From a virus: a stretch of DNA of 42,746 nucleotides. This document shows, piece by piece, positions 29,268 to 42,746 of this stretch. Every line of letters starts with the position of its first letter. The first letter of the stretch is position 1. The translations under genes were made by a program, and so were the position numbers. The notes below the pieces were generated by a model. The model was not told where the DNA came from and searched no databases. It saw only the letters and a list, made by a program, of their open reading frames with translations. The DNA is taken from the IMG/VR virus record IMGVR_UViG_3300037300_000416, positions 1 to 42,746 of that record. One strand, given 5' to 3'.

Positions 29268-29273
29268 TTGACG
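29268..29273 (+). promoter_or_regulatory. GTTGAC box, 16 bases before terminase small subunit
   Basis: GGTTGACG, then 16 bases, then ATG 29290. First gene of the late module. Confidence 0.5.
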
Positions 29274-29289
29274 AGTCCGCAACCTGCGG

Positions 29290-29895
29290 ATGGAAGCCGT
29301 TTCCCCTGACATCGCCAAAAAGCTGCTTTCGCGGGACTTCGCCAATCTGGTCGGTCGCGTCCAGAAGGGTGGCAAACTCACCCGTGTCGAACGGGCGATG
29401 CTGCAATCCATGGCCACCGGCACCGGAGCGGCACCCACTACCGCCGCCAACTACGTCGAGCTGGCCAACATTCTCGGAATCACCCGCCAGTCGGCCCACG
29501 CGTGGAAAAAGCGCAAGGACGCACCAAAGCCAGCATCGAATGGTTTGCATGACGTGGCTGCATGGCGGGAGTTCATGCGTCGCAATGATTTGAAGGGGGG
29601 CGAACCACTCACCCAGGACGCCGCCGACATTGAGACCTCACTCAAAGCCCGCAAGCTGCTCGCCGAAGTTGAGGAACGGGAACTGCGGTTAGGGATCAAA
29701 CGAGGTGACTTCGTGGCGGTCGAGGAAGTCAGGCAGGCATGGACTGAGTTCGTGGCGCAGGCAACGTCGATGCTTCGCAAGAAGTTCGAGCAGGAATTGC
29801 CGCCGATTCTCTCGGGCCTCGACGCCACCGGCATTCAGGAAGAAGCCCGCCGCGCCATCGACGAGGTGTTGACGATTCTCCACGAGGGCGAATGA
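29290..29895 (+). CDS. Terminase small subunit (Nu1-like)
   Basis: 201 aa. Residues about 45-75 form an HTH (YVELANILGITRQSAHAWKK) for recognising the packaging site. The following helical region with KARKLLAEVEERELRLGIKR and GDFVAVEEVRQAWTEFVAQA matches the Nu1-type oligomerisation domain common next to GpA terminases. It binds the phage DNA and recruits the large subunit, whose start overlaps its stop (ATGA at 29892). The gene order, terminase small then large, is typical of lambda-like late operons. Confidence 0.8.
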   Translation: MEAVSPDIAKKLLSRDFANLVGRVQKGGKLTRVERAMLQSMATGTGAAPTTAANYVELANILGITRQSAHAWKKRKDAPKPASNGLHDVAAWREFMRRNDLKGGEPLTQDAADIETSLKARKLLAEVEERELRLGIKRGDFVAVEEVRQAWTEFVAQATSMLRKKFEQELPPILSGLDATGIQEEARRAIDEVLTILHEGE

Positions 29896-31715
29896 AGACC
29901 ATCGAACCTGCACGCAAGAAGCTCGAACGGATCTGGCGGAATGCTTGGCGTCCCCCGGATCGTCGTCCCCCGTGGGCGTGGTGCGAGGAACACATCACCT
30001 CGATCCCCTACTCTCCCATTCCCGGCCGGTTCCGCTCGGCCAACTCGCCATGGATGCGCGAGCCGATGGAAGCATTGGTCGATCCGAAGATCCGCATCGT
30101 GAGCATCATCGCCGCGATCCAAAGCGGCAAAACCAGCGTGGGTGAACTCGGCCTCGCCCACATCATCGCCAACCATCCAGGCCCCACGCTCTGGCTCGAT
30201 CAGACCGACGACGACGCGAAAGACCAAAGCGAAAGCCGACTCCAGAAACTCTTCGATGAATGTGAGCCTGTGAAGGCACTCTATCCGGCCAATCGTCACA
30301 AGAAACGCAACAACACAATCCACTTCGCCAACGGCATGACGCTCTGGGTGCTAGGTGCAAACAACAAGACGAACCTCCAGCGGCGCTCGATTCGTTGGTT
30401 AGTCTGCGATGAGACATGGCGCTACAAAAATGGTCACATGGCGGAAGCGGAAGCCCGTGTCACCGCGTTCGGTTGGCTTGGCAAGTGCCTGTTCATGAGC
30501 CAAGGCGGCGAGGAGGATGACGACACCCACAGGAAGTTTGAAACCACCAACATGCGTGAGTGGACGTTCGCCTGTCCCCACTGCCACCACCGCCAACCCT
30601 TCAAGTGGGACCAGGTGGAATGGAGCAAGGACGCCCGCGATGAATCCGGTCAGTGGGATTTCCAGAAAGTCAGGGACACCACTACGATGCATTGCGTCTC
30701 GTGCAACCACTACTTCAATGACAGCGACCGAACCCGCCGTGAACTCAGCCTCACCGGTTGCTACATCACCACCAACCCAAACGCCCCAAAGGAAAACGTG
30801 GGTTTCCACTGGAATGCCCTCTGCGCCATGAGCTGGGGACGCTTGGCCGAGCTGTATCTCCGCGCAAAAACCGCCGCCCGCAAAGGAGACGTGAGCTTGA
30901 TCCAACAGTTCTACCAGAAGCGACTGGCGCTGGCGTGGCGGGAATACCTCGAAGACTACCGCTTGGAGATCATCCCCGGCGGCTATCTCAAAGGCGAAAT
31001 CTGGGACGGCGAGGCAGGCGTGGATGCCCAAGGGCGCTTGGTTCCGGCTGGCGAACCGTGTGCCTGTCCACTGCGGATCCTCACGGTGGACTGCCAGATG
31101 GACCACCTTTGGCTGGTCGTGCGCGCATGGGCCGAGGACGGATCGAGCCGATTGATCTGGGACGAGCGGATACTCACTTTCACCGACGTGGAGAGCGTGC
31201 AGGAGCGCTTTGGCATTCACCCGAACCTGGTGTTCATCGACGCCGGATACGCCACCTACGACGTCTATCGTGAATGCGCGGCCCACGGATGGACAGCACT
31301 CTTGGGCGACAAGCGCGCCACCTTCACGCACAAGGTGAAAGGCCGAAAATCCGTCGAGCGGTTCTATTCGCCGCGAAGGAAGGTGGTGCTCGGCCGCGGC
31401 CAATCGTGCTCGGTGTTCTACTGGTCCAACCTCAACATCAAGGACACACTCGCCCGCCTTCGGCGAAACCAAAACCCCGAGAACGGGCCGGTGTGGGAGG
31501 TGCCTGACGATATCGACGAGGAATATCTCGCCCAAATGGAAAGCGAGCACCGGATCAAGAAAGGCGGCAAGTGGATTTGGGAGCGTATCGGGTCTCGCGC
31601 CAACCACCTCTTCGATAACGAGGCAATGCAGGTTGCCGCCGCCACCATGCTCAAGATCGTGGGGCGCGAATCAGTGGGAGAGCCCGCCGTTGACACTCAG
31701 GACGAGGCATCATGA
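29892..31715 (+). CDS. Terminase large subunit (GpA family)
   Basis: 607 aa. The packaging ATPase half has the GpA-type Walker A AAIQSGKTS with Lys80 and GPTLWLDQTDDDAKDQSESR. Two CxxC pairs (ACPHCHH, HCVSCNHYF) near residues 225-280 suggest a zinc-binding insert common in GpA proteins. The nuclease half begins at LRILTVDCQMDHLWL with its catalytic Asp, then DAGYATYDVYRE. It cuts concatemeric DNA at the packaging site and pumps it into the head. Full length for the family, no break. Confidence 0.88.
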   Translation: MKTIEPARKKLERIWRNAWRPPDRRPPWAWCEEHITSIPYSPIPGRFRSANSPWMREPMEALVDPKIRIVSIIAAIQSGKTSVGELGLAHIIANHPGPTLWLDQTDDDAKDQSESRLQKLFDECEPVKALYPANRHKKRNNTIHFANGMTLWVLGANNKTNLQRRSIRWLVCDETWRYKNGHMAEAEARVTAFGWLGKCLFMSQGGEEDDDTHRKFETTNMREWTFACPHCHHRQPFKWDQVEWSKDARDESGQWDFQKVRDTTTMHCVSCNHYFNDSDRTRRELSLTGCYITTNPNAPKENVGFHWNALCAMSWGRLAELYLRAKTAARKGDVSLIQQFYQKRLALAWREYLEDYRLEIIPGGYLKGEIWDGEAGVDAQGRLVPAGEPCACPLRILTVDCQMDHLWLVVRAWAEDGSSRLIWDERILTFTDVESVQERFGIHPNLVFIDAGYATYDVYRECAAHGWTALLGDKRATFTHKVKGRKSVERFYSPRRKVVLGRGQSCSVFYWSNLNIKDTLARLRRNQNPENGPVWEVPDDIDEEYLAQMESEHRIKKGGKWIWERIGSRANHLFDNEAMQVAAATMLKIVGRESVGEPAVDTQDEAS

Positions 31716-32146
31716 GTGCCTTCTCCGATTGGTTCGAGTCCCAAGAATTCCGTCACTTCGGTGCCCGCGAGTTCGAATCCTACTTCGCGGCGCAGCGAAG
31801 AGGCGTGACCAACAGTGCGCCACCCAAAAGCCTCTGGAAGAACATCGTGCCCACGCTCCGGATCGTCGATGATTTGCGCCAATCGTTCGGCAAACCCTGC
31901 CGGATCCTCAGCTCGTATCGCTCGCCGGACTACAATCGGGCAGTTGGCGGTGTCCCTCTCAGCCAGCACAGGAACTTTACCGCCCTCGACATTGCCTTTG
32001 ATGGAGTGAGCCCGAAGCAAGTCTATGATCGGCTGTTGGAGTGGCGCAGAGCGGGCAAGTTTGTGGGCGGGCTTGGAATCTATCCATCGTCTGGCTTCGT
32101 CCACATCGACACGCGGGGCAGCAATGCCACTTGGAGCGGTCGTTGA
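31712..32146 (+). CDS. M15-type peptidase (endolysin or tail/wall hydrolase)
   Basis: 144 aa. The metallopeptidase ligands are visible: SQHRNFTALD gives His86 and Asp93, and GFVHIDTRG gives His131. SYRSPDYNRAVGGVP is the usual preceding loop. Such D-Ala-D-Ala/L-Ala-D-Glu peptidases cut peptidoglycan peptides. No signal peptide, so it may need a holin (not seen in the window) or act from the virion. Placed between terminase and head genes, an unusual position for the lysis gene. Overlaps the terminase by four bases. Confidence 0.8.
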   Translation: MSAFSDWFESQEFRHFGAREFESYFAAQRRGVTNSAPPKSLWKNIVPTLRIVDDLRQSFGKPCRILSSYRSPDYNRAVGGVPLSQHRNFTALDIAFDGVSPKQVYDRLLEWRRAGKFVGGLGIYPSSGFVHIDTRGSNATWSGR

Positions 32147-32150
32147 TCCG

Positions 32151-32156
32151 TTGACA
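32151..32156 (+). promoter_or_regulatory. GTTGAC box, 13 bases before the gpW-like gene
   Basis: CGTTGACA, then 13 bases (CCCGCCCTCGGTC), then ATG 32170. Shares GTTGAC-x-CCC with the epimerase and ParB boxes. Confidence 0.5.
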
Positions 32157-32169
32157 CCCGCCCTCGGTC

Positions 32170-32430
32170 ATGGCGCGAGGTTTATTCATCACCGGCTTCA
32201 CCGTATCCGAGGTTCTGGCAATCCAACAGCGAGCGAAGGAATTCCTGCTCGAAGGCAAGACGATCATGAACTGGAACGACGCAGACACCTCGGTGGCCAA
32301 GCAGTTCACCATGCCGGTCGATCAGGTGCTTGAGGAATGCGCCCACGCCCTCCGTGTTCTGGACCCGGCCACCTACGGCAGACTTCGGACCACGGCGGCT
32401 TCCTCCATCCCAGGCTACCTGCCAAAATGA
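32170..32430 (+). CDS. gpW-like head-tail joining protein, 86 aa
   Basis: The stretch VSEVLAIQQRAKEFLLEGKT followed by IMNWNDADTSVAKQFTMPVD and QVLEECAHALRVLDP matches the small gpW-like family encoded between terminase and portal in lambda-like phages. The protein would sit at the portal vertex and link head and tail. Overlaps the portal start by four bases (ATGA). Confidence 0.65.
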   Translation: MARGLFITGFTVSEVLAIQQRAKEFLLEGKTIMNWNDADTSVAKQFTMPVDQVLEECAHALRVLDPATYGRLRTTAASSIPGYLPK

Positions 32431-33920
32431 TGACCCTCAAACAAATCGCCCGCAAGTGGCTGCCGCCCGTCCTTCTCCCCACTGCTTGGAGTTCTCCCTT
32501 CGAGTCGGCAAACTGGTCGCCCCGTCGTGGCTTGGTTCCGGGTTTTGCCCCCACCGACGCCCGCAACGAACTCACCTCTTCAGTGCGCAGTGAGCTTGTC
32601 CGCAAGTCTCGCTACCTCCACAAGAACTCCGGGTTTGTCCGCGAACTGGTCGCCAACATGGCCATCTATTCGACCGGTGATGGCATCCGAGTCCAGGCAC
32701 AGTCGCCAGATCCAGAGTGGAACCGAACTGCGGAAGCCTACTTCGCCCTTTGGTCGGCCCGCTGTGAAATCACCCGGCGCTTTTCCTTTGAAGAATGCCA
32801 GTCGCTCGTCTGCCGGGGCATGGACATCGATGGCGAATATTTTATCCACAAAACCCGCGACGCCGATGGAGAGCCTCGCATCCAGCTGATCGAGTCCCAC
32901 CGCGTCGGCGACGAATTCGGCACCAAGGAAACCATCGACGGCGTGGGTCTGGATGCCTGGGGTGCACCGATCTTCTGCCGCGTCTTGGAGGATTCGGGAA
33001 AAGCCCGGGACCTGCCAGCGTCCTCGATCCTGCATGTCCACGAACCGGAATGGGCCGGCGGCGTGAGGTCCCATCCCACCATTCAGCATTCCATCAACCA
33101 CGCCCTCGATGAGATGGAATTACTGGCGCTCGAAAAACACGCAGTAAAGGACAACGCCGATATTTCCCGGGTGCTCAAAACTGCCCGTGGGGAACTGGAC
33201 GACAATGGAGACTTCGTTGTTGGGGGCGCAGCGGGCGATCATGATCCAAGCGACCCAATCACACTTCAGAAAATCGTGGGGGGAAAGCTGGTGGCTCTCA
33301 AACCTGATGAGTCCATCGAGAGCTTCCAATCCAATCGGCCATCTCCTACATTCACCGGCTTCCTGGAGCACCTACGGCGGGACTCAGCGCTGGGTGTGAT
33401 CCCATTCGAGTTTGCGGCAGATTCCAGCAAGATTGGTGGAGCGGGCGTGCGCTTGATCGTGGCCAAAGCTGACCGCCGCTTCTCATTCCGGCAGATGATT
33501 CTCGAACGCCGCCTCATCCAGCCGGTCTGGACCTACGTGATCGGCGATGCCCTCGACCGCGGACTCCTGCCGCCCATTGAAGGATGGTGGAAGATTGGTT
33601 CGGTCTGCCCCCGCAGGGTCTCAACGGATGCTGGCCGTGAAGCACAGCAAAACAGAGCAGACGTCGAGATGGGATTGAAGACTCTATCGGATCACTACGC
33701 CGAGCTAGGTGCGGACTTTGGCGAAGAGATTCTGCGCCGGGGAGCCGACGCTAAGCTCATTATCGAAACCGCCGCAAAATACGGTGTTCCGGTCGAAATG
33801 CTCTGGAAGCCATCGGTTGGCCCACCGCAAGCGCAGCAACCGTTGACACCGCAACAGGCGGGTGAGCAACCGAGCAGAAACGCAAGACAAGGCGGAAATC
33901 AATCGTCTAAAGTCACTTGA
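32427..33920 (+). CDS. Portal protein (lambda family)
   Basis: 497 aa from ATG 32427, overlapping the previous stop. Lambda-portal features include DARNELTSSVRSELVRKSRY near the start, GDGIRVQAQSPDP, CRGMDIDGEYFIHKTRDADG, the stretch beginning IQLIESHRVGDEFG, and the C-terminal AGREAQQNRADVEMGLKTLS. It forms the dodecameric ring through which DNA is packaged. Its last 20 codons are read through the beginning of the HNH gene in another frame, so the HNH insertion seems to have replaced the native portal tail. Confidence 0.85.
   Translation: MMTLKQIARKWLPPVLLPTAWSSPFESANWSPRRGLVPGFAPTDARNELTSSVRSELVRKSRYLHKNSGFVRELVANMAIYSTGDGIRVQAQSPDPEWNRTAEAYFALWSARCEITRRFSFEECQSLVCRGMDIDGEYFIHKTRDADGEPRIQLIESHRVGDEFGTKETIDGVGLDAWGAPIFCRVLEDSGKARDLPASSILHVHEPEWAGGVRSHPTIQHSINHALDEMELLALEKHAVKDNADISRVLKTARGELDDNGDFVVGGAAGDHDPSDPITLQKIVGGKLVALKPDESIESFQSNRPSPTFTGFLEHLRRDSALGVIPFEFAADSSKIGGAGVRLIVAKADRRFSFRQMILERRLIQPVWTYVIGDALDRGLLPPIEGWWKIGSVCPRRVSTDAGREAQQNRADVEMGLKTLSDHYAELGADFGEEILRRGADAKLIIETAAKYGVPVEMLWKPSVGPPQAQQPLTPQQAGEQPSRNARQGGNQSSKVT
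33843..33848 (+). promoter_or_regulatory. GTTGAC box, 13 bases before the HNH gene
   Basis: CGTTGACA, then 13 bases, then GTG 33862. It lies within the portal coding sequence. Confidence 0.5.
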
Positions 33921-34566
33921 ACGAGGACGCAGATACAGGCAGCGGCATCGCGAGAGACTACTCCAAAAGCGCCGTGAATGGAGAGACCTGAATCGCGAAC
34001 TTGTCCGCAAAGAAGCGGTGGCTAGGTATTGGAGAAACCCTGATCACGTAAGAGCGCTTGCAAGAGCAGCATACCGCCGCAATCCAAAGCGAGTCCTAAC
34101 ACATGAGCAAAAATTGGCGGCGAGGGATAGGGTTAGGCGCTATCGTAAAAAGCACAAAGATCGACTTAGGAAGCTTGATCGTGAACGTTTGAAAAATGAT
34201 AGGTCTTATCTATTCGCGAGACAATTACGGTCGCGTGTTGGAAAAGCCGTGAAACATCAATACGCAGAAAAAGCAGGGAAAACGATGGACCTAATAGGAT
34301 GCGCCGTAAAGCAACTCCTGACTCATCTCGAATCCCAATTCCTTCCTGGAATGACGTGGGAGAACTACGGCAGATACGGATGGCACATCGACCATATCAT
34401 CCCATGTGCGGTGTTTGATCTGAGTCGGGTCGAACACCAGAAGAAGTGCTTTCACTATTCGAACCTCAGACCAGCTTGGTCCCACCACAACGAAGGGCGT
34501 GGAAGTCGAATTGAGGGTGAACTGCCGCTGATCTATCGAAACAAGAAAAGCAAACAGCCGCGTTGA
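33862..34566 (+). CDS. Free-standing HNH endonuclease inserted in the head gene cluster
   Basis: 234 aa from GTG 33862. Residues 1-140 are Arg/Lys-rich helices (RGRRYRQRHRERLLQKRREW and repeats of similar type) that probably hold DNA. The catalytic part is WHIDHIIPC (His175, Asp177, His178), then FHYSNLRPAW with Asn201. The 234-aa length and its place between portal and protease mark it as a selfish homing-type insertion. It is more AT-rich than its neighbours, especially 33980-34300. It overlaps the portal end by 59 bases. A GTTGAC box stands 13 bases ahead of it, and another one of the same spacing ahead of the protease after it. Confidence 0.8.
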   Translation: MSNRAETQDKAEINRLKSLERGRRYRQRHRERLLQKRREWRDLNRELVRKEAVARYWRNPDHVRALARAAYRRNPKRVLTHEQKLAARDRVRRYRKKHKDRLRKLDRERLKNDRSYLFARQLRSRVGKAVKHQYAEKAGKTMDLIGCAVKQLLTHLESQFLPGMTWENYGRYGWHIDHIIPCAVFDLSRVEHQKKCFHYSNLRPAWSHHNEGRGSRIEGELPLIYRNKKSKQPR

Positions 34567-34568
34567 CA
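34563..34568 (+). promoter_or_regulatory. GTTGAC box, 13 bases before the S49 protease
   Basis: CGTTGACA, then 13 bases, then GTG 34582. The TGA within the box is the stop codon of the HNH gene. Confidence 0.5.
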
Positions 34569-34581
34569 GCCATTCCTGAGC

Positions 34582-35862
34582 GTGAACTCGCTCCTCCTGC
34601 AAAACCCTCAGTGGCTAATCCAGCCTGAAGCACTGCGCTCAATGGTGGCTGCGGCGGATTCTTTTCGTGCGCTTGACAATCCAGTGGTCCGGGATCAGCC
34701 CGTCAGCTCCCTGCTTTCCGTTGAGGATGGTGTGGCGACGATCTCGATCAACGGGCCAATCATCCGCAAGCCCGACATCTTCGCCCGGGTGCTGATGGGC
34801 GCTACCGACTCTGAGGAAATTGGAGCGGCTATTCAGGAAGCGGGTTCCCGTCCCGACATCAAGGCGGTGTTCTTGGACATCGACTCTCCCGGCGGCACGG
34901 TGGCCGGCACTCCTGAACTGGCGAACGCCGTGGCATCGCTCGATAAGCAGAAGCCGGTCTACGCATTTTCCTCCGGCCTCATGGCATCCGCCGCCTACTG
35001 GATCGCCAGCCAGGCCCGCGCGATCTATGCCACCCCATCCGCGCAGGTCGGTTCTATCGGCGTGGTGCAAGCGGTGGTTGATCGCTCAGCGGCTATCAGT
35101 GCGGCAGGCATCAAGGTGGAGGTTTTCTCTGTGGGGAAATACAAGGCGATGGGTGCTCCAGGCACTCCACTCACCGACGACCAGCGCGAATTGATCCAAT
35201 CGAACCTCGCTGAAATTGCCGGGGAGTTTCATGCGGCCGTGCTGGCAAAAGGACGCTCGATCCCACCCGAAGCTATGGAGGGTCAAACTTTCAGCGGCAA
35301 GCAGGCACAGCGGGTCAATCTGGCAGGTATGGTTCCGGATCGCGCCGAAGCCATGCGCCGTCTCAAGGTCTATTACGCGTCGGTTGACAGGGGAGCCCGT
35401 GCGATGACCGCACTTGAAGACCAACTTGCCGAAGCCCTCACCCAGGTGGATAACCTCACCCGGGACTATCAGGCGCAAACCGAACTTTTCACTGAAAGCT
35501 CTGCGACTCTCGATTCGCTGCGCGGTGAAGTGGAAATTCTCTCCGCTCAAGTCGAGACACTTGGCGTCGAACGGGATTCCGCCGCCCAAGAAGCTATCGC
35601 CCTCCAAACCCGCATCGCAGACCTTCAAGCATCCCAAGTGGATTTCGACCGCAGGCTGCAACTTGAAGTGGCCCGCGTCGTCGCCTCCACCGGCACCATG
35701 CTCCCCGCCAACGTCACCCCGGCTGGCCACCAGTCACAGGCCGCTCAGACGCCGTCCCTCCACGACCTCGTCACCCAATACGAGCAGCTCGTCACCGAGC
35801 ACAAGCCCGTGGAAGCCGCCGCCTTCTACCAACAACACCTCGCCAAACACTTCACCCGCTAA
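34582..35862 (+). CDS. S49 head maturation protease fused to scaffold region (lambda gpC-like)
   Basis: 426 aa from GTG 34582. The SppA-like protease has catalytic Ser136 in SSGLMASAAYWIAS and Lys188 in SVGKYKAMGAPGTP, with DIDSPGGTVAG and AQVGSIGVV as substrate loops. From about residue 275 it becomes a long coiled coil (LEDQLAEALTQVDNLTRDYQ, RGEVEILSAQVETLG) ending in a helical tail, the layout of lambda gpC with an internal Nu3-type scaffold. It cleaves scaffold and itself inside the procapsid. An internal ATG at 35404 with its own GTTGAC box is annotated separately. Confidence 0.85.
   Translation: MNSLLLQNPQWLIQPEALRSMVAAADSFRALDNPVVRDQPVSSLLSVEDGVATISINGPIIRKPDIFARVLMGATDSEEIGAAIQEAGSRPDIKAVFLDIDSPGGTVAGTPELANAVASLDKQKPVYAFSSGLMASAAYWIASQARAIYATPSAQVGSIGVVQAVVDRSAAISAAGIKVEVFSVGKYKAMGAPGTPLTDDQRELIQSNLAEIAGEFHAAVLAKGRSIPPEAMEGQTFSGKQAQRVNLAGMVPDRAEAMRRLKVYYASVDRGARAMTALEDQLAEALTQVDNLTRDYQAQTELFTESSATLDSLRGEVEILSAQVETLGVERDSAAQEAIALQTRIADLQASQVDFDRRLQLEVARVVASTGTMLPANVTPAGHQSQAAQTPSLHDLVTQYEQLVTEHKPVEAAAFYQQHLAKHFTR
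35384..35389 (+). promoter_or_regulatory. GTTGAC box inside the protease gene, 14 bases before the internal scaffold start
   Basis: GGTTGACA at 35382-35389, then 14 bases, then the in-frame ATG 35404. A box inside a gene at exactly the usual distance from an in-frame ATG supports a second translation start. Confidence 0.5.
35404..35862 (+). CDS. Predicted internal scaffold protein (Nu3-like), 152 aa
   Basis: In-frame ATG 35404 within the protease gene opens MTALEDQLAEALTQV and runs to the common stop. The product is nearly all heptad coiled coil (TLDSLRGEVEILSAQV...QTRIADLQASQVDFDRR), then a disordered Pro/Gln region and a basic helical end (FYQQHLAKHFTR), just as in scaffolds that bind coat proteins by a basic C-terminal helix. 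In lambda, Nu3 is made from an internal start in gene C. The GTTGAC box 14 bases ahead of this ATG matches those before other structural genes. Start not proven. Confidence 0.65.
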   Translation: MTALEDQLAEALTQVDNLTRDYQAQTELFTESSATLDSLRGEVEILSAQVETLGVERDSAAQEAIALQTRIADLQASQVDFDRRLQLEVARVVASTGTMLPANVTPAGHQSQAAQTPSLHDLVTQYEQLVTEHKPVEAAAFYQQHLAKHFTR

Positions 35863-35868
35863 TTCGCC

Positions 35869-36765
35869 ATGCCCAACTCGAACGCCACGGTTAATTCCGC
35901 CATCATCGCCCAGACCGCGCTCAACACGCTACTGGCCCGATTCCCGCTCCTCGGACAAATCGCCACCGACTTCAGTTCGGCCAGCGTGAAGTTCAACCAA
36001 GACATCGTCACCCACATCGTCACTCCCACGGTGGCCAAGGATTTCGTTCCTGCCACGGGTTACGTCCCGGATGACCAGGCACAGGTCGATGTGAGCGTGA
36101 AGATCAACAAGCACGCCTACGCGGGCTATGCCATCACCGACGTGGAGCGCTCCACCAGTCAGATCGATCTCAACCAACGCTATGCCGACAAAGTGGCTTA
36201 TGCCCTCGGCCGCAAGGTGAGCGATGACCTGATGGCTCTCATCATCAACGCCAACTTCACCAACAAAACGGAAATTGCCGCCGCCTCGTTCGGTCGCAAC
36301 ACCGTGGTGGACATCGGCACCAAGCTCAACAAGCGGTTCATCCCGGACATGGGCCGCTTCATGTTCGTCAACTCCGATTACTACAACGCCCTGCAAAAGG
36401 ATGAGGCGCTCTACAAGGCGTTCATCACTCCCGCAGCGGGCAACGTGGTGGTTTCGGGGGTGCTGCCCGACGTGAACGGCTTTACCGTGATCGAATACTC
36501 GGCCCTACCTGAAAACGGCGAGCGTCTGGTCGGCTTTGCCGGTATCCGGGAGGGACTCATCATGGCCGCCCGTGTGCCAGATGTTCCATCCAACACCGGC
36601 GACACTGTGATCCGCGTCGTCACTGACCCACGCACCGGATTGTCCGTGCAAGTCCGTGACCGCTACGATGGACGCCTCGGCAAGCAGGAAGTCAGCTTCA
36701 CGCTGATGTATGGCTTCGCGGCAGGCAACAAGCCCGTCATGGAGCGGATCACCCGTCCGGCATAA
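35869..36765 (+). CDS. Major coat protein (P22-coat-like, HK97 fold)
   Basis: 298 aa. The family pattern is seen in VNSAIIAQTALNTLLARFPL at the N-terminus, a long helix with LNQRYADKVAYALGRKVSDD, a block with RFMFVNSDYYNALQKDEALY, and GFTVIEYSALPENGERL, ending in the beta-rich RVVTDPRTGLSVQVRDRYDG region. It forms the capsid shell. Position after the protease/scaffold and before a strong terminator fits a highly expressed coat gene. Start has no Shine-Dalgarno site. Confidence 0.8.
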   Translation: MPNSNATVNSAIIAQTALNTLLARFPLLGQIATDFSSASVKFNQDIVTHIVTPTVAKDFVPATGYVPDDQAQVDVSVKINKHAYAGYAITDVERSTSQIDLNQRYADKVAYALGRKVSDDLMALIINANFTNKTEIAAASFGRNTVVDIGTKLNKRFIPDMGRFMFVNSDYYNALQKDEALYKAFITPAAGNVVVSGVLPDVNGFTVIEYSALPENGERLVGFAGIREGLIMAARVPDVPSNTGDTVIRVVTDPRTGLSVQVRDRYDGRLGKQEVSFTLMYGFAAGNKPVMERITRPA

Positions 36766-36790
36766 GATTTTGGGTTAGGTTGTTCATGGG

Positions 36791-36830
36791 ACGCCCTCTT
36801 CAGGAAACTGGAGGGGGCGTTTTTTGTTTT
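36791..36830 (+). terminator. Strong intrinsic terminator after the coat gene
   Basis: ACGCCCTCTTCAG, loop GAAA, then CTGGAGGGGGCGT and a T-rich run (TTTTTTGTTTT). A good hairpin with U-tract; it shares the GAAA-loop design of the terminator at 2588. It would lower transcription of the genes past the coat. Confidence 0.85.
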
Positions 36831-36834
36831 GACA
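36829..36834 (+). promoter_or_regulatory. GTTGAC box, 14 bases before head completion gene
   Basis: TTTTGACA, then 14 bases, then ATG 36849, directly at the end of the terminator T-run. Confidence 0.45.
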
Positions 36835-36848
36835 GCATCACCCACGGC

Positions 36849-37160
36849 ATGGGCATCGAATCGGAAATTCTGGCAGACTTCGGCCACCTGCTATCAGAGC
36901 ATGGTGTGAAGGCGCGGTGGAAGGACATCAGCCTGCTCGTGCTCGTCAGCCGCGTGCGCAACGACCAGCAGATCGACATGGGCGGATTCGTCGAATCACC
37001 AGACCTCAGCCTGCGCGTGCCGAAGCGGGCATTCCCAGCCGCCATGCCAAAATTCGGTGAACGCATCGAAGTGGACGGCACTGAATACCGCATCACCAAA
37101 GTCTCGGCCCACCCGCGCTCACCTCTGCTCACACTTACTCTCAGCACCACCGATGAGTGA
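36849..37160 (+). CDS. Head completion/head-tail connector protein, 103 aa
   Basis: ATG 36849 is chosen because it follows the terminator and GTTGAC box; the open frame upstream crosses the hairpin. The protein has an amphipathic N-terminal helix (IESEILADFGHLLSEHGV) followed by beta strands (VDGTEYRITKVS, PLLTLTLSTTD), as in small connector proteins encoded after the coat protein in lambda-like phages (gpFII-like). Function by position and size. Overlaps the next gene by eight bases. Confidence 0.6.
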   Translation: MGIESEILADFGHLLSEHGVKARWKDISLLVLVSRVRNDQQIDMGGFVESPDLSLRVPKRAFPAAMPKFGERIEVDGTEYRITKVSAHPRSPLLTLTLSTTDE

Positions 37161-37935
37161 TGTTCGCTTCACCGCCAAGCTCAAGGGAGCATCCGACGTG
37201 GCCAGACTGCTACGCCGCTATCCAGAAAAGGTGGGACGGACATTGCTGTCCCTGGTGAAGCAGGAAGCGCGTGGCCTATCTGTGGAACTCGCCCGCAACA
37301 CCCGGCCGTTTGGGTTCTCAGAAAAGGCCCGCAAGACCGGCGAGGATGCGGTAGCCAAAGACATCAGCGGCGTGTTCGCCCTGCCATCGGATGCCTTCGC
37401 GGAAATCCGCAAGTCCAATCCGGCGGCGGCAGATCGCTTGTGGTCAAACATCCAGAACCGGCGCTTCTCACGAGCGGAAAACAATCTGCGCCAAACCAGT
37501 TCCGGTTGGAAGGATCTCTCGGTCGGCCGCCTCGACCCGAAGCTTCACCGATGGGGGCAGTTGGGCGCGGCGAAACCGAAGCAGATCGTCACCAGCGCGA
37601 AGGCCCGCGAGAGCTACATCGCCAAGATCCAGAAGCGGGTCGGCTTCGCCAAAGGATCATGGATCAACGCGGGCAAGGCGATTGGCGGGCGGGTGCGGGG
37701 TGCCGCGCAATGGACAACCCGGCACAAGCAGGCCCCCGGCAGCGCCGCAATCAAGACCGGCGACAAGCCCGCCGTCACGCTGATCAACAATCTCGACTAC
37801 ATCGACGACGTGACCACCTACAAGACCGTCAATCTCGCACTCCAAGTGGCGGCAGGGCGATTGCGCAAGGCTCTATCCACCTCGCTGCGGAAGGTCAACG
37901 ATCAGGCCAACAGGCGATTCGGCAGGACCGGTTGA
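37153..37935 (+). CDS. Minor tail protein (HK97 gp10/lambda gpZ-like role), 260 aa
   Basis: ATG 37153 within ATGAGTGA. The N-terminal KLKGASDVARLLRRYPEKVG and VELARNTRPFGFS patterns resemble phage minor tail proteins of the gp10 or Z type. The middle is basic (ASKQ-rich region with RWGQLGAAKPKQIVTS, RVGFAKGSWINAGKAIGGRV), and the C-terminal part is an amphipathic helix with NLALQVAAGRLRKALSTSLR. It probably sits at the top of the tail tube. A hairpin follows the gene. Family match is approximate. Confidence 0.55.
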   Translation: MSDVRFTAKLKGASDVARLLRRYPEKVGRTLLSLVKQEARGLSVELARNTRPFGFSEKARKTGEDAVAKDISGVFALPSDAFAEIRKSNPAAADRLWSNIQNRRFSRAENNLRQTSSGWKDLSVGRLDPKLHRWGQLGAAKPKQIVTSAKARESYIAKIQKRVGFAKGSWINAGKAIGGRVRGAAQWTTRHKQAPGSAAIKTGDKPAVTLINNLDYIDDVTTYKTVNLALQVAAGRLRKALSTSLRKVNDQANRRFGRTG

Positions 37936-37943
37936 AAAATAAA

Positions 37944-37971
37944 AGGACGTCCTCAACCGTGAAGACGTCCT
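37944..37971. other. Hairpin between tail genes, no U-tract
   Basis: AGGACGTC and GACGTCCT pair perfectly around a 12-base loop, with A-rich DNA before and mixed DNA after. Without a T-run it is a poor terminator; it may mark mRNA processing or a weak terminator for the other strand (A-run upstream). Confidence 0.5.
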
Positions 37972-38067
37972 CTTGGCGCTGGCAATCCCTTATCAGCACC
38001 GAGACTACTAGGAAATCCGCACCAGTTTATCAAGGGGGTTGTCTGAATGATCCGCACACAAGCACGG

Positions 38068-38073
38068 TTGACG
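38068..38073 (+). promoter_or_regulatory. GTTGAC box, 16 bases before tail terminator-like gene
   Basis: GGTTGACG, then 16 bases, then ATG 38090. Confidence 0.5.
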
Positions 38074-38089
38074 CGGAATCACGGACAAG

Positions 38090-38515
38090 ATGCCCAACCT
38101 GATCGAAGACCGCCTTTCGTCACTGCTTGCTGAGTGGATCGACACCAACCGCCCCGAGGATCTACCCAATTCGATTCCAGTTCATGTCGCCCGCCGCGAT
38201 GAAATCCGCACTCGTCCATGCGTGGTTCTCAATACGTCGGAAGCCAAGCCGATCCCGGCCATGCCCCACACCGCACGGGTAAAACTCGACGTGCATCTAT
38301 TTTCCCAAGTGGATGACACGCCAGCCGAAACACACGCCGAGTGGGCAGGAAAACTGGCGGTGTTGCTCGGTGGCAAGTCGGTAATTCAATCGGCGTTGGA
38401 TTCCGAAACCTTCGTTCTCCATGACCTACTAGACCGCGAAAGCGTGACCACACCGGATGAAGCACGAGGCCGCGAATCGGTTCTCAGCTACGAGGCCGTA
38501 GTGTCGGCTCTCTGA
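38090..38515 (+). CDS. Tail terminator-like protein, 141 aa
   Basis: A small alpha/beta protein with N-terminal LIEDRLSSLLAEWIDTN, a strand pair around PCVVLNTSEAKP, VKLDVHLFSQVDDTPAE, and a final LSYEAVVSAL strand. The order and size are those of tail terminator/minor tail U-like proteins that cap the tail tube. Position between the minor tail gene and the tube-like gene supports this. No catalytic motif. Identification is by position and secondary structure. Confidence 0.5.
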   Translation: MPNLIEDRLSSLLAEWIDTNRPEDLPNSIPVHVARRDEIRTRPCVVLNTSEAKPIPAMPHTARVKLDVHLFSQVDDTPAETHAEWAGKLAVLLGGKSVIQSALDSETFVLHDLLDRESVTTPDEARGRESVLSYEAVVSAL

Positions 38516-38521
38516 CTCCGG

Positions 38522-38527
38522 TTGACA
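38522..38527 (+). promoter_or_regulatory. GTTGAC box, 16 bases before tail tube-like gene
   Basis: GGTTGACA, then 16 bases, then ATG 38544. Confidence 0.5.
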
Positions 38528-38543
38528 CGCCGCACGCGGTCAA

Positions 38544-38927
38544 ATGGCCGCGACATTCCTTGGCACAACTGGCAACTGGGGCATCCCTCAGGATGAAGCC
38601 GGCATCATCATCACCGACTTTTCCATCGACTACTCCAACCAGGAGAAAATGGTCTTGGACAAGGGCGGTGAAATCATTGGTCTCGCGCTCTATCAGGAGA
38701 AAGCCGAAATCAAGCTATCCGGACTGGTGAAGAAAACCGGCCCGTTCTCGGGCAAAATCGGCGCGGCACTCGCCCTCACCAATGCAGTCCCGGCCCACAT
38801 GCAGTCCAGCGGCGGAATCACGATCATCAAGCAGATCAGCCGCGCCCTCAACAACGAGGACTTCGAGAAAATCGACATCACCGCGACCAATTACCCGCTG
38901 GTCGTTTCCGGTGGCGGCGGCCCGTGA
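38544..38927 (+). CDS. Tail tube-like protein, 127 aa
   Basis: Mainly beta strands (IIITDFSIDYSNQEKMVLDK, LALYQEKAEIKLSGLVKK, ITIIKQISRAL) with a Gly-rich end, as expected for a small tail-tube subunit. It lies directly before the unknown 38956 gene and the tail chaperone, the usual place for the tube gene. The size is at the low end for tube proteins. No sequence signature allows a firm call. Confidence 0.5.
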   Translation: MAATFLGTTGNWGIPQDEAGIIITDFSIDYSNQEKMVLDKGGEIIGLALYQEKAEIKLSGLVKKTGPFSGKIGAALALTNAVPAHMQSSGGITIIKQISRALNNEDFEKIDITATNYPLVVSGGGGP

Positions 38928-38955
38928 ACCAACCTTTCCAACCTGAGATACCGAT

Positions 38956-39357
38956 ATGAACGCCATCACCCACATTTCATCCACCGCCACCAGCAACACC
39001 TGCCTTGCCGCCGCATTGACGGCCGTTGGCATTCCGCTTGCCGAGAAGCCCTTCGTCCGCGTTGTCGGCGACGGCATCCGAGGCGAGCGCACCGTTTGGT
39101 TCTTCGACCCACAAAGTCCCGACGGCAAATTCCAGACCAAGGACCTCATCGAGGCGTGGAATGACGACGCCTGGCACCTCGCTAATCCAGAGCATCCGTT
39201 CGCCTACATCAAGTGCGCCCTGCTCAATCGCCAGCGCCTCGTGGACAAGGTGAAGCAAGATGTGCCGCTCGCCTGCGTGAAGCGCCGGGGGAAGATCGCT
39301 TTCATCCCGCTTGATGCCTCGCCAGCCACCGAAGACCAGTTCCTCCGCTACCTCTGA
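38956..39357 (+). CDS. Hypothetical phage protein, 133 aa
   Basis: I do not recognise it. It begins with a Ser/Thr-rich helix (STATSNTCLAAALTAVGIPL), followed by strands VRVVGDGIRGERTVWFF, a helix with TKDLIEAWND, and a C-terminal IAFIPLDASPATEDQFLRYL. Soluble, no signal peptide. Sits six bases before the tail chaperone and 28 after the tube-like gene, so it probably serves tail assembly or replaces a tail gene. Confidence 0.5.
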   Translation: MNAITHISSTATSNTCLAAALTAVGIPLAEKPFVRVVGDGIRGERTVWFFDPQSPDGKFQTKDLIEAWNDDAWHLANPEHPFAYIKCALLNRQRLVDKVKQDVPLACVKRRGKIAFIPLDASPATEDQFLRYL

Positions 39358-39363
39358 GATCCC

Positions 39364-39783
39364 ATGAACGACACCGACCGCCAAAAGCACCTATCCACCG
39401 CCTTCCACGACGTGGAAACCATCGTCGCGGGTCATGCCATGCGCCCGTTGTCGCTGGCGAGCTACGACGTGCTTCTCCGCACCGGCAACCCGCTCGTGAA
39501 GGGTGAGATGCCCACCGACGGCACCCCTGAGTTCACCTCTGCCATCATGGGCTTCGTCTTCACCCATTGCGCCCCATGGCCGGAAGTGGTGCGGGCGTCG
39601 TTCAACGACCAGGGATTCCGGGAAGCCGCCCTCATCTTCTGCGGTGCCCTCACCCCGGCCGATTTCCAGACTGCCTTCAAACGCCTTGAAGAACAGAGCC
39701 GTGAACTGGAGGCGGCACAGGTGGAAACCATGGGGGACATCGGAGGAAAAAAGCCCCTCCGTGCGACGAACCCGGATTCATAG
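39364..39783 (+). CDS. Tail assembly chaperone, short form (G-like), 139 aa
   Basis: A helical protein with FHDVETIVAGHAMRPLSLAS, a loop, TSAIMGFVFTHCAPWPEVVR, and DFQTAFKRLEEQSRELEAAQ. It ends ETMGDIGGKKPLRATNPDS. This is the first frame of a G/GT chaperone pair that folds around the tape-measure protein in long-tailed phages. Near its 3' end the message has A AAA AAG in the correct frame, where a fraction of ribosomes would slip back one base into the following frame. No tape-measure gene follows in the window. Confidence 0.75.
   Translation: MNDTDRQKHLSTAFHDVETIVAGHAMRPLSLASYDVLLRTGNPLVKGEMPTDGTPEFTSAIMGFVFTHCAPWPEVVRASFNDQGFREAALIFCGALTPADFQTAFKRLEEQSRELEAAQVETMGDIGGKKPLRATNPDS
39747..39753 (+). 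other. Programmed -1 frameshift heptamer A AAA AAG
   Basis: GGA AAA AAG is read in the zero frame at 39745-39753, so the heptamer A AAA AAG fits the X XXY YYZ rule exactly. It is the same heptamer that acts in E. coli dnaX. A slip joins the short chaperone to the frame ending at 40028. Confidence 0.85.
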
Positions 39784-40028
39784 CCGCCCAGGTGTTCGCC
39801 GTTGCCGCCGAAACCGGCTGGCCCGAGGAACGGATTCTGTTCATGCCGCTGGCGCGACTCGCTCAGTATCAACACTGTCTGTTGCGGAGGAATGGGGTGA
39901 GAACGACCTGGAGCAGCGCGGGCGGTGGCAGTATGGGACTGCGGGATCAACTGGAGGCGTTGCGGGGATGCTGGATTGGCGCAAATTCATCAAATTCGGC
40001 TAACGAAAGCTTGCCAGACAATGGCTGA
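39753..40028 (+). CDS. Frameshift extension of the tail chaperone (GT-like, T part)
   Basis: From 39753 the -1 frame is open for 91 codons after the shift: APPCDEPGFIAAQVFAVAAE then TGWPEERILFMPLARLAQYQ. This is the T pattern seen in many phages (short linker, aromatic/acidic helix, ...MPLARL.QYQH). It has no good start of its own apart from a GTG at 39792, so it is made as a GT fusion of about 220 aa. The last 20 residues (Ser/Asn-rich) look unnatural and may come from the joint with the neighbouring cassette DNA. Confidence 0.8.
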   Translation, partial: APPCDEPGFIAAQVFAVAAETGWPEERILFMPLARLAQYQHCLLRRNGVRTTWSSAGGGSMGLRDQLEALRGCWIGANSSNSANESLPDNG

Positions 40029-40117
40029 ATCTGCTGTTGCAAACCCATCGCAATGCAACCAACGACCAACCAAAGCCCGTTCTTCCGAATGGGACTTCCC
40101 GGAGAAGTATTCTTCTG

Positions 40118-40173
40118 TGCTGTATTTGTGGGACATATACAGCACGCGCCTGTTACAGGACAAATACAGCACG
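40118..40173. repeat. Inverted and direct repeats before the zinc-ribbon gene
   Basis: GTGCTGTATTTGT (40118-40130) and ACAAATACAGCAC (40161-40173) are perfect inverted repeats 30 bases apart. ATACAGCACGC occurs twice (about 40138 and 40165), and CCTGTTACAGG is a small palindrome between. It may be an operator or promoter region for the gene at 40206. It does not look like an attC site. The interval 40029-40205 has no gene. Confidence 0.55.
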
Positions 40174-40205
40174 CTGTTCAATAAAACTGTTAGCGAAGAA
40201 AAAAT

Positions 40206-40826
40206 ATGATAAACTCCCATTGCCCCGAATGTGATGCCCTCAACGAGATTCCAGAAGCATATCTTGGGCGAGAAGTCACATGTCCTTCCTGCAAGGGTGA
40301 CTACGTGGCGACACGCCCAAGTGGAACTGTGCGAAAGCCGATTCCCGCTACCGCTCCCTTAATACCGCCACCTACTGAGCAAACCATGAAAGAACCAAAC
40401 CAATCTGCCTTTAATCTGACAACAGCGCTACTGGCGATGATTGTGCTTCTATTCATTTACGTTAACAGATCCGCTATCTTCCCCGCTTCCAAGGAGGTAG
40501 GCGATGTCGATATGCCTGCCGCAATGGATGTTCGGCCTGTGGTGCAAATCTGGGAATACAAAATTGAGCGTTACTACAACTCCGAGCAATTCAAGGATGG
40601 AGAGAGCGTATCGGTATACGGAGACGAAGCTAAAGAACAGACCTCTGTGAGAATCGACGTAAAGAAGCTTGATGGGATAGGAGGAGACGGATGGGAGCTA
40701 GTATCGACGTATCTTGAGATGCAGACAGCGTTTTACAACTTTGGCGCGTCAGATCTTCACACCGGAATCAAAGAGAACGTAAGGCCACAAGCAGTCGTAG
40801 CAATCTTCAAACGACCCAAACGCTAA
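40206..40826 (+). CDS. Zinc-ribbon, single-pass membrane protein with DUF4177-like domain, 206 aa
   Basis: Residues 4-35 contain CPECDALNEIPEAYLG and CPSCKGDYVA, a MJ0042-like zinc ribbon. Residues about 72-89 (LTTALLAMIVLLFIYV) are one membrane helix. The C-terminal WEYKIERYYNSEQF and GDGWELVSTYLEM, ending VVAIFKRPK, match the DUF4177-like domain (W-E-Y-K ... G-W-E-L-V ... F-K-R). The zinc ribbon would be inside and the C-terminal domain outside. The stop lies within an attC-like site, and GC content is lower than in the phage genes, as in integron cassette genes. Function unknown. Confidence 0.7.
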   Translation: MINSHCPECDALNEIPEAYLGREVTCPSCKGDYVATRPSGTVRKPIPATAPLIPPPTEQTMKEPNQSAFNLTTALLAMIVLLFIYVNRSAIFPASKEVGDVDMPAAMDVRPVVQIWEYKIERYYNSEQFKDGESVSVYGDEAKEQTSVRIDVKKLDGIGGDGWELVSTYLEMQTAFYNFGASDLHTGIKENVRPQAVVAIFKRPKR

Positions 40827-40907
40827 CAAGTCGGAGCAGGCGACGCCGAGGAAGCCGTCTGATTAAATTTAGCTTGACACCGGCGCGCCTGTCCTATGAC
40901 GTTCGAC
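40821..40907. other. attC-like integron recombination site 1
   Basis: The left end CGCTAAC (40821) and right end GTTCGAC (40901) pair as R sites. L'' GGAGCAGGCG (40833-40842) pairs with L' read in reverse complement, GGACAGGCG, with one unpaired G, the extrahelical base typical of attC sites. The loop between is GCCGAGGAAGCCGTC onwards. It overlaps the stop of the zinc-ribbon gene. Confidence 0.7.
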
Positions 40908-41115
40908 AAAAATCAATCGCCAACACATTTTCTATGAAAACAACAACCCCCATTTCCCCGCCCTCCGGGCCGACCCATTGGCTCTTTCAGGGGCCTCCCG
41001 CAGAAAGCAAACTCCTAGCAGAGAAGCCGTCTGATTAAATTTAGCTTGACACCGGCGCGCCTGTCCTATGACGTTCGACAAAAATCAATCACCAACACAT
41101 TTTCTATGAAAACAA
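40851..41115. repeat. 93-bp direct repeat (two copies, one mismatch), 172-base period
   Basis: Positions 40851-40943 and 41023-41115 are identical except one base (G at 40919, A at 41091). Each contains the loop and right half of an attC-like site, the crossover GTT, a leader and the first bases of an ORF. The distance from one GTT (40901) to the next (41073) is 172 bases. A 34-codon ORF starting MKTTTPISPPSGPTHW lies at 40934-41038 in the first unit, a possible mini-cassette or the decayed start of one. Confidence 0.85.
41023..41079. other. attC-like site 2, right half only
   Basis: The loop, L' (CGCCTGTCC 41058-41066) and R' (GTTCGAC 41073-41079) are identical to site 1. The left half (41003-41022) has diverged and does not pair well, so this site may not recombine normally. 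Confidence 0.5.
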
Positions 41116-41696
41116 AATACAACAAAGTGGCTACCCTAGCTGCTACTCTAATCACATTCGGATCGCTCGCAGGGGGAGCGAATGGGGCATTAATAATTAC
41201 AGACAATGGGAGCACGATCACATTAGATTGGAATGAAACTCTAGTAACGACATCTGTTGTATCGGGAGGGGCACTTCATAATTTGATCTACGAGAATATG
41301 TTTTCAGCTGCACCAGCCCATTCACGCAGTAACCCTATTATATCTAGTTTCTCATCTTCAATTACTGTGAATGGAATTGAAGCTTCACCCACGATTTGGA
41401 CTGGCTGGAATTATCGCCCAGGCGAAGCAGACTTGCTTGATACACAGCAAATAGCCATCATTTGGAATCCAACAATTTCAGCGGGCGTTGGTGACACATT
41501 AGTGTTCACAGGATCTATGACTCTTAACAGCGATTCTTTTTACACCGTTCCTGACCAAGCTCCGTCTATTGTTTGGTTTGGTAGCCAGGGTGTCAAATTT
41601 ACCGCAGACACAGCTGTTGTTCCAGAGCCTTCATCAACTTTCTTAATTGGACTAGGGGTATTGGGTTTTGCGAGCCGCCGAAGAAGAATGAACTGA
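41106..41696 (+). CDS. Secreted PEP-CTERM protein, 196 aa
   Basis: Signal peptide in residues 1-27 (TLAATLITFGSLAGGANGAL). The body is beta-rich with no known domain (ITDNGSTITLDWNETLVTTS, then ITVNGIEASPTIWTGWNY). It ends with VPEPSSTFLIGLGVLGFA followed by SRRRRMN, the PEP-CTERM motif with membrane helix and Arg tail, which sends proteins to exosortase for release or anchoring. This machinery is common in Verrucomicrobiota. The frame begins 27 bases after an attC crossover and ends at the next attC, as a single-gene cassette. Low GC content. Confidence 0.8.
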   Translation: MKTKYNKVATLAATLITFGSLAGGANGALIITDNGSTITLDWNETLVTTSVVSGGALHNLIYENMFSAAPAHSRSNPIISSFSSSITVNGIEASPTIWTGWNYRPGEADLLDTQQIAIIWNPTISAGVGDTLVFTGSMTLNSDSFYTVPDQAPSIVWFGSQGVKFTADTAVVPEPSSTFLIGLGVLGFASRRRRMN

Positions 41697-41786
41697 GTCG
41701 AACAAGCGGATCGTGGCGACGGCGAGGAAGCCGTCTGATTTGATTGGGAGCCTTTTTCCGCCGCCGCCACATCCTTGACGTTCGGT
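41697..41786. other. attC-like integron recombination site 3
   Basis: R'' GTCGAAC (41697-41703) and R' GTTCGGT (41780-41786) pair. L'' GGATCGTGGCG (41708-41718) pairs with L' (reverse complement GGATGTGGCG), again with one extrahelical base, and the inner stem CGACGGCG pairs with CGCCGCCG with a mismatch. The loop repeats GAGGAAGCCGTCTGATT of site 1. It is 90 bases long and starts one base after the PEP-CTERM stop. Confidence 0.75.
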
Positions 41787-41849
41787 AAAAAAACAACTCT
41801 CTATTCCCCGATCTCCTCTCCCAGCCTTCGCCACTGCCCCTCACATATC

Positions 41850-42584
41850 GTGCAACACAATCCACTAATATCCCTAAGAAATTCACTGCTCTTTCTTTTC
41901 CTCACGGTCAGTAATTCTGGCGCGATGATGATTTTCATTAATCTACCATCCAATGAGCAGTTCAGCTTAGATGTGGAGCCGAGTTACTCGACCGAGGATG
42001 TCAAGGCAAAGATAGAGGACAGACGAGGAATTGTGCCGGAGAACCAATATATCTACTTCAGCAGTAGTCTACTCAGTGATGGTCGGACGTTATCGGATTA
42101 CAACATCGGGAAAAATACATTACTACAGGCTCATGTCGTCGGGCCACTAGCAGTCGCATCCTTCAGCTCTTACCCGGCGCTCCTGAATATGTCGATCCGC
42201 GACGCAGCTTCGACCGACGGCAGTGGCTGGATGGTGCTCAATTATCAAAGCTCAGTGGACTTCTCAGTCTTTGGACTTGCTTCACAGACAATCGCACTAC
42301 GAAGTTTCAGTGGCAATGATGAAGGCGTCATCGCCGGTTTCGATCCGAGCCAGTCTTATGAGTGGAATTTTCTTACTGCCCCCAACGGTGTTGCAGGCTT
42401 CAATGCAGGGGTATTTACAGTGGACACGACAGAATTTTCCAACGCCTTCACAGGAACTTTTTCAGTGGTGCAAAGCAGTCCGCAAAGTCTCGCCATCGCT
42501 TACTCAGCGGTTCCTGAACCGTCTACAGTCCTGAGTGGGGCACTAGGTTTGTTCGCGCTGGTCTTTCGCCGGAAGCGTAGCTAG
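41850..42584 (+). CDS. Secreted PEP-CTERM protein with an N-terminal ubiquitin-like domain, 244 aa
   Basis: I chose GTG 41850, which gives a signal peptide (LRNSLLFLFLTVSNSGA); there is no ATG until 41925. Immediately after the signal, MMIFINLPSNEQFSLDVEPS, then a block with VKAKIEDRRGIVPENQ, then LSDGRTLSDYNIGKNTLLQA align with ubiquitin along its length, including VEPS, VKAKI, DGRTLSDYNI and a Lys at the position of K63. Ubiquitin K27 and K29 are kept; K48 is not. The domain lacks the C-terminal Gly-Gly and runs into a beta-rich domain, then VPEPSTVLSGALGLFALVF-RRKRS, a PEP-CTERM sorting tail. It is a cassette gene (starts 70 bases after attC 3). Confidence 0.8.
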   Translation: MQHNPLISLRNSLLFLFLTVSNSGAMMIFINLPSNEQFSLDVEPSYSTEDVKAKIEDRRGIVPENQYIYFSSSLLSDGRTLSDYNIGKNTLLQAHVVGPLAVASFSSYPALLNMSIRDAASTDGSGWMVLNYQSSVDFSVFGLASQTIALRSFSGNDEGVIAGFDPSQSYEWNFLTAPNGVAGFNAGVFTVDTTEFSNAFTGTFSVVQSSPQSLAIAYSAVPEPSTVLSGALGLFALVFRRKRS

Positions 42585-42610
42585 CCTTACTACATAAGAA
42601 ATATAATTAA

Positions 42611-42617
42611 CCGAACA
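42611..42617 (+). other. Possible left end of a fourth attC
   Basis: ACCGAACAAG after the ubiquitin-like gene matches the left end of an attC site (R'' consensus ending CGAAC, then AAG as in sites 1 and 3). No matching right half is found in the remaining 130 bases, so the site is truncated, or the resemblance is chance. A hairpin CCGCGATC/GATCGCGG at 42661-42686 follows. Confidence 0.3.
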
Positions 42618-42687
42618 AGAGTAAGCCCCCGAGCGTCCGCCATTGGAAAAACCTCGGTCGCCGCGATCTCCCGGCCAGGATCGCGGC

Positions 42688-42746
42688 ATGTCACGCACAC
42701 GTCACACCGACAGAGAGAAGGCCCGCATCATCCGGGAGTTTAAAAA
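42688..42746 (+). CDS. Start of an unidentified gene at the window edge
   Basis: ATG 42688 opens MSRTRHTDREKARIIREFK and is still open at the end of the window. Basic and helical; too short to identify. The ATG is one base after the 42661-42686 hairpin. Confidence 0.3.
   Translation, partial: MSRTRHTDREKARIIREFK

Follow-up and report, generated by a model that had tools for sequence, protein, structure and literature searches.

A diverged ubiquitin domain in a predicted exported PEP-CTERM protein encoded in an integron-like array of phage DNA

We describe a ubiquitin-like (Ubl) protein, encoded on phage DNA, that belongs, as a diverged member, to a group of exported proteins widespread in bacteria and marked by an N-terminal ubiquitin domain. 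Its gene lies close to the end of the window, by which we mean the whole 42,746-nucleotide stretch analysed (virus record IMGVR_UViG_3300037300_000416), in an integron-like cassette array within the tail operon. From the sequence, we judge the chances to be slightly better than even that the gene is a host-derived mobile surface-protein cassette carried by the phage, with a product that would be sorted by the exosortase of the host.

The ubiquitin-like PEP-CTERM protein

The reading frame of the Ubl protein is the one originally predicted, at 41850-42584 (Table 1); an alternative TTG start at 41775 falls within the attC-like site at 41698-41785. As read from the sequence, the signal peptide would be cut at the junction SGA|MMIF, directly before the ubiquitin Met1, as in the secreted ubiquitin BfUbb. 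The mature protein has 219 residues past the signal peptide and so is not a free single domain of about 76 residues of the BfUbb type. At its C terminus are a PEP motif, a transmembrane stretch and a basic end, which score 27.4 bits against a cut-off of 20.7 with PF07589 and 18.3 against 16 with TIGR02595. The initial description of an exported protein in which a beta domain is followed by an exosortase signal is thus borne out. A search of a phage database with the Ubl protein gave no match.

Table 1. Features of the tail operon, the cassette array and the Ubl protein in the window
Feature	Coordinates	Strand	Description	Basis
Putative major tail protein	38544..38927	+	Query for finding related phages; named by position	No PHROG hit
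Putative tail-assembly chaperone	39364..39783	+	Left border of the hotspot; named by position	No PHROG hit
attI-like leader	40105..40191	+	17-bp direct repeats at 40131 and 40158; core ...AAAACTGTT ends at 40191, the L134 divergence point	
First cassette gene	40206..40826	+	Zinc-ribbon, probably membrane-anchored	Weak domain hits
attC-like site	40822..40906	+	GCTAACAAG ... GACGTTCGA; arm score 12.0; 3' part repeated at 41023-41115	
Second PEP-CTERM gene	41106..41696	+	Signal peptide, PEP-CTERM; neighbouring cassette	Pfam
attC-like site	41698..41785	+	TCGAACAAG ... GACGTTCGG; arm score 15.8; just 5' of the Ubl gene	
Ubl PEP-CTERM gene	41850..42584	+	244 aa; GTG start at 41850 most likely, stop at 42584	ORF/translation, Pfam
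Signal peptide	41850..41924	+	MQHNPLISLRNSLLFLFLTVSNSGA; predicted cut after SGA, immediately 5' of ubiquitin Met1	Read from sequence
Ubiquitin fold domain	41925..42137	+	Without the LRLRGG tail	Pfam, PDB sequence search, AlphaFold2, Foldseek
Beta-rich domain	42138..42506	+	Common to the Verrucomicrobiota Ubl-PEP-CTERM protein L129	
PEP-CTERM exosortase sorting signal	42507..42575	+	PEP, transmembrane stretch, RRKR	PF07589, E=3e-6
CCGAACAAG	42611..42619	+	Possible left end of the Ubl cassette's own attC	Read by eye

The match to ubiquitin extends over the whole fold and is far above chance, as first claimed. It covers positions 1-68 of the 72 in the PF00240 profile, with 49 bits against a cut-off of 25.4 (E=5e-13); phmmer comparison with single-ubiquitin PDB chains gave E values down to 4e-17; and the same match was found in none of 14 control genomes. 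Structure prediction and superposition on ubiquitin were the checks originally proposed. Given the mature protein and 17 of its relatives found on bacterial and viral contigs, AlphaFold2 modelled mature residues 1-70 with pLDDT 96-98 and the ubiquitin order of strand, strand, helix, strand, short helix, strand, and produced no confident model of residues 75-219, the beta and sorting part. A Foldseek search against solved structures returned ubiquitin (E=7e-9), with TM scores normalized by target mostly at 0.92-0.97 and rmsd values of 0.5-1 Å for the closest structures. According to this model, the domain is a true ubiquitin fold and a member of the ubiquitin family (PF00240).

The residues through which ubiquitin usually acts are largely changed. 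Strand 5 is followed by LQAHVVGPLA and not by LRLRGG, so the reported absence of a Gly-Gly tail stands, and the domain, which has no C-terminal glycine for conjugation by known chemistry, is not a protein modifier. The K27, K29 and K63 positions are kept, the last as had been noted. The I44 patch has been lost (L8P, I44Y, V70H), as has K48 (K48S), all four being residues that most bacterial members retain. Most ubiquitin-binding domains read the I44 patch, and most of them should therefore not read the window domain. Replacement of these four residues, which ubiquitin-binding proteins use, is evidence against ubiquitin mimicry and weakens the original suggestion of a decoy. The sequence instead favours a ubiquitin fold used as a stable module with a new surface, and not as a tag.

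Exported ubiquitin relatives in bacteria

Using a ubiquitin alignment of four rows, we scanned a single genome of each species and obtained 248 confirmed relatives from about 15 phylum-level groups, among them the isolates Pseudomonas protegens, Saccharibacillus, Lachnospira multipara, Neptunomonas and Rhodoferax. In the best 80 of the 248, which were examined further, a hydrophobic signal sequence ends directly before Met1 in 70, with A (65), G, S or C as its last residue, and the LRLRGG tail is kept in 4. Relatives match human ubiquitin at a median of 89% over 72 positions, and many keep L8, I44, V70 and K48. Their C-terminal parts vary and, by eye, include barrel-like ends in F, IPTL- or PEP-type sorting signals, T9SS-like tails and SLH-like repeats. 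Many of the carriers come from water, sediment and other environmental samples. In even samples of genomes, PF00240 was present in 14 of 388 Verrucomicrobiota, 4 of 296 Bacteroidota and 2 of 398 Pseudomonadota, counts that include the centre genomes, already known to be positive. We found no description of this wide group in the literature searched, with subscription papers largely beyond reach.

The domain in the window is 55-57% identical to its nearest kin, which are bacterial exported proteins, as against 49% to human ubiquitin, and its residue 16 is D, in line with 61 of 79 bacterial members but unlike the E of human, yeast and plant ubiquitin. The proposed acquisition from a eukaryote is unsupported by these comparisons. 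In the phylogeny that had been called for, a tree of 72 columns that included yeast, plant and NEDD8 rows, most forks lacked resolution and the window sat on a long branch. For this reason we use identities only; the family may have come ultimately from a eukaryote, a virus or an older bacterial lineage.

A Ubl-PEP-CTERM fusion, which the original prediction had proposed to look for, was also found in Verrucomicrobiota. Genome G193 encodes the same three-part protein in full length (L129), whose beta and sorting part matches that of the window protein with 42% identity along 88 residues (E=4.5e-14), and in G235 a ubiquitin domain is followed by another domain and a VPDTG-type tail (L127). No beta-domain relatives were confirmed in viral contigs. 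We found no exosortase in the phage record; exosortases are present in the Verrucomicrobiota genomes G193, G077, G280 and G235. G193, with four exosortase matches, also encodes many PEP-CTERM proteins. We infer that the phage host belongs to the Verrucomicrobiota.

Several features of the wider group were seen in passing. Exported ubiquitin domains, many near human ubiquitin, occur in isolate genomes (L033, L006, L029, L041, L067, L084 and others), and the Dyella protein L084 consists of a signal peptide and a complete ubiquitin including LRLRGG, followed by a stop. Tandem pairs of exported-ubiquitin genes are found in the Verrucomicrobiota genomes G151 and G280 (L118/L130 and L123/L132). A set of proteins with mostly barrel-like C termini (L020, L025, L034, L036, L039, L062, L064) shares an xVxxxxGIxFTS... 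stretch 5' of the hydrophobic signal, perhaps an extended signal region.

Two annotated exported ubiquitin-family proteins, WP_013483628 from a Ruminococcus albus 7 plasmid and WP_217877103 from Pseudoalteromonas shioyasakiensis, share with the window protein a signal peptide, a ubiquitin domain directly after it and a C-terminal extension; they differ in having other C-terminal parts and in not being phage-borne. We know of no function for either. With PEP-CTERM/exosortase surface proteins (PF07589, TIGR02595), the window protein has in common a signal peptide, a variable beta-rich body and a PEP-CTERM tail; unlike the usual ones, it begins with ubiquitin, and its gene lies on phage DNA that yielded no exosortase.

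The closest characterized parallel to the export of a ubiquitin domain is BfUbb of Bacteroides fragilis, which is exported, cleaved at Met1, devoid of a terminal glycine and antibacterial (PMC5705921, PMC3352274); its authors noted eukaryotic-like ubiquitin in 'a few bacteria' (PMC5705921, PMC3352274). The earlier statement that a ubiquitin used outside the cell has no described role is accordingly wrong. The two proteins are alike in having a bacterial-type signal peptide cut exactly before Met1, no C-terminal glycine, export (predicted here) and a patchy distribution. They differ in that BfUbb is a free 76-residue domain, 63% identical to human ubiquitin, with demonstrated antibacterial activity, whereas the window protein, known here from its sequence, is a more diverged, three-part PEP-CTERM protein on phage DNA.

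A cassette array in the phage tail operon

The gene was at first placed in a bacterium, but the window is a virus record with genes for terminase, portal, head protease, major head protein, DNA polymerase, helicase, ligase and clamp loader, and phage genes flank the array on both sides in the sister contig L134. Names for the putative tail-assembly chaperone, tail protein and tape-measure protein come from position and sequence style, as PHROGs searches with all three gave no hit. Elsewhere in the window, the minus strand has a 1709-aa ORF (14616-19745) without a PHROG match.

The slot between chaperone and tape-measure genes is a hotspot. It spans 39784-42746 of the window, with the array starting at 40192, and was also found in contigs L134-L249, with varied cargo that is unrelated between phages. 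In related phage contigs the gap is either empty, at 224-244 bp, or filled, with 43 distinct intervals of 556 to 6511 bp. Over window positions 28864-40213, L134 shows 99.8% identity; beyond them its content differs, with a lipoprotein-like gene and an attC-like site first, then two PEP-CTERM genes, of which one is interrupted by a stop, a further attC-like site and a tape-measure-like gene. A second sister contig, L133, is 99.96% identical over 12 kb (window 30233-42258) and diverges inside the Ubl gene after residue 136, so the gene may be dispensable. Near the array, all three sister contigs end in IS-like or otherwise unrelated DNA (window 42688-42746, L133 12027-12152, L134 13880-13987); in the window a transposase-like ORF begins at 42688.

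We searched for attC-like sites by their signature (AACA[AC]G, ACGTT and paired arms) with a custom score and alignment. At a score threshold that was lowered after a stricter one had yielded nothing, and that was checked against shuffles and background, there were 2 matches in the window array, 6 in 74 kb of inserts and 2 in 1.12 Mb of bacterial background, with none in 438 kb of other phage DNA. The two sites in the window have AAC...GTT cores and imperfect arms and lie after genes, as in integron cassette arrays, and none was found elsewhere in its 42.7 kb; the original description of a mobile, integron-type cassette is therefore supported. The downstream attC of the Ubl cassette is incomplete, its right half being absent before the contig end. 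A 93-bp repeat (window 40851-40943 and 41023-41115) comprises an attC right half and the start of a PEP-CTERM gene, and looks like the remnant of a deleted cassette.

In an alignment, a leader ending in ACTGTT or ACAGTT is common to eight phages, the window and L134 among them; their sequences part right after GTT, which is what insertion at G|TT would produce. In these eight arrays with an attI-like leader, each of the 19 ORFs that reach 80 aa is on the tail-gene strand, compared with 32 on the plus and 11 on the minus strand in other inserts. Promoters within the array were no more frequent than chance. Among the array proteins, several bear a signal sequence, a lipoprotein sequence or PEP-CTERM (window, L134, L143, L211, L149, L244, L246).

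Neither the window nor the fragments carrying attI-like leaders yielded a tyrosine recombinase, so any integration would have to rely on the host. Searches for an integron integrase (PF00589, TIGR02249) likewise gave no match in the window or L134, contigs that are possibly incomplete, a CALIN-like arrangement; in the tested Verrucomicrobiota genomes they gave only sub-cut-off matches, as in 14 of 14 control genomes. The chromosome of G077 has a series of small ORFs in one orientation, with an attC that shows 79% identity to the phage attC. A good attC-like site also lies about 1 kb upstream of the Ubl gene at the Verrucomicrobiota locus L121. We considered whether Ubl genes are integron cassettes generally and rejected this idea, because the 1.12 Mb around relatives contains only the 2 matches given above; most Ubl relatives thus lie outside attC arrays.

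Virulent phages are known to carry CALINs, clusters of attC sites without an integrase (Qi et al. 2023, PMC9892861). The array shares with these its phage-borne attC cassettes and the lack of an integrase gene. It differs in having an attI-like leader, in occupying one conserved tail-operon slot whose content varies between near-identical phages, and in a cargo that consists largely of exported or PEP-CTERM proteins. The main text of PMC9892861 makes no mention of PEP-CTERM, Verrucomicrobiota or tape measure.

Possible origin and roles of the exported ubiquitin

In our preferred explanation, a host-derived surface-protein cassette, the cassettes would be drawn from the cassette pool of Verrucomicrobiota hosts and inserted by a host integron integrase, which we invoke since none was seen in the phage. 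They would be transcribed together with the late genes, given that all cassettes are on the tail-gene strand. As its signals suggest, the Ubl protein would be exported by the host Sec system, and signal peptidase would expose ubiquitin Met1 as the mature N terminus. Host exosortase would then remove the PEP-CTERM tail and leave the protein at the cell surface or in the matrix with its ubiquitin domain exposed, where the fold would most likely serve as a stable binding (or folding) module and not as a protein tag.

An assembly chimera or eukaryotic contamination, which the original prediction had itself raised against its claim, can be rejected as a negligible risk. A few of the genome hits (L056, L061, L080), with LRLRGG and no signal peptide, do look like contamination, but the window locus recurs in L133, an independent metagenome contig; its bacterial signal peptide and PEP-CTERM share one frame, and L129 is a full-length Verrucomicrobiota homolog. 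The gene might also be a neutral passenger, without a current role for the phage, in a slot that samples host cassettes. We regard this as a distinct though not the favoured possibility: near-identical phages differ in array content, the Ubl gene is cut in L133, and other phages have unrelated cargo at the same site, whereas in the window reading frame, signal peptide, ubiquitin core and PEP-CTERM are all unbroken.

Of the roles that would benefit the phage, remodelling of the host surface during infection, with late-expressed exported cassettes masking receptors or blocking superinfection or the spread of rivals, seems unlikely. The co-orientation of cassettes with late genes and the export or sorting signals of the array proteins would fit, but late expression leaves little time for sorting and exported proteins may just be common in the host pool. 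Somewhat less likely again is a BfUbb-like antibacterial action, in which a displayed or shed ubiquitin domain would inhibit related bacteria and the phage would gain by arming or protecting its host. BfUbb, with the same cut before Met1 and no terminal glycine, kills related strains as a synthetic, bare 76-residue protein (PMC5705921); it is, however, a free single domain, whereas the window domain, only about half of whose residues match ubiquitin, is fused to a beta part and a sorting signal. Moreover, bovine ubiquitin was inactive in the same work (PMC5705921), so the fold alone does not kill. We find it improbable that the protein faces eukaryotes, as a surface mimic or decoy that engages ubiquitin-binding proteins, proteases or receptors of grazing protists. 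Such a role would suit the many relatives that are close to human ubiquitin and keep L8, I44, V70 and K48, but the window copy has neither the I44 patch, nor K48, nor the C-terminal glycine, and the group has many carriers from environmental samples.

Extending the surface-cassette explanation to the phage lineage, we propose tentatively, as less likely than not, that these phages keep an attI-like site in the tail operon, capture cassettes for exported proteins by means of the host integrase and alter the host surface by their late expression, the displayed ubiquitin being one cargo from a large unrecognised exported group. If so, phages would change the host surface with captured host cassettes, exported ubiquitin proteins among them. 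A slot in the tail operon that exchanges integron cassettes would connect phages with the cassette pool of their hosts, and it provides natural pairs of near-identical phages for comparison. Ubiquitin is usually seen as a eukaryotic tag, exported by bacteria in just one or a few exceptional cases. Our data suggest that N-terminal ubiquitin recurs in exported proteins of many bacterial phyla, joined to barrel-like, sorted or surface-layer-like C termini, and they raise a testable question, namely what role extracellular ubiquitin has for bacteria.
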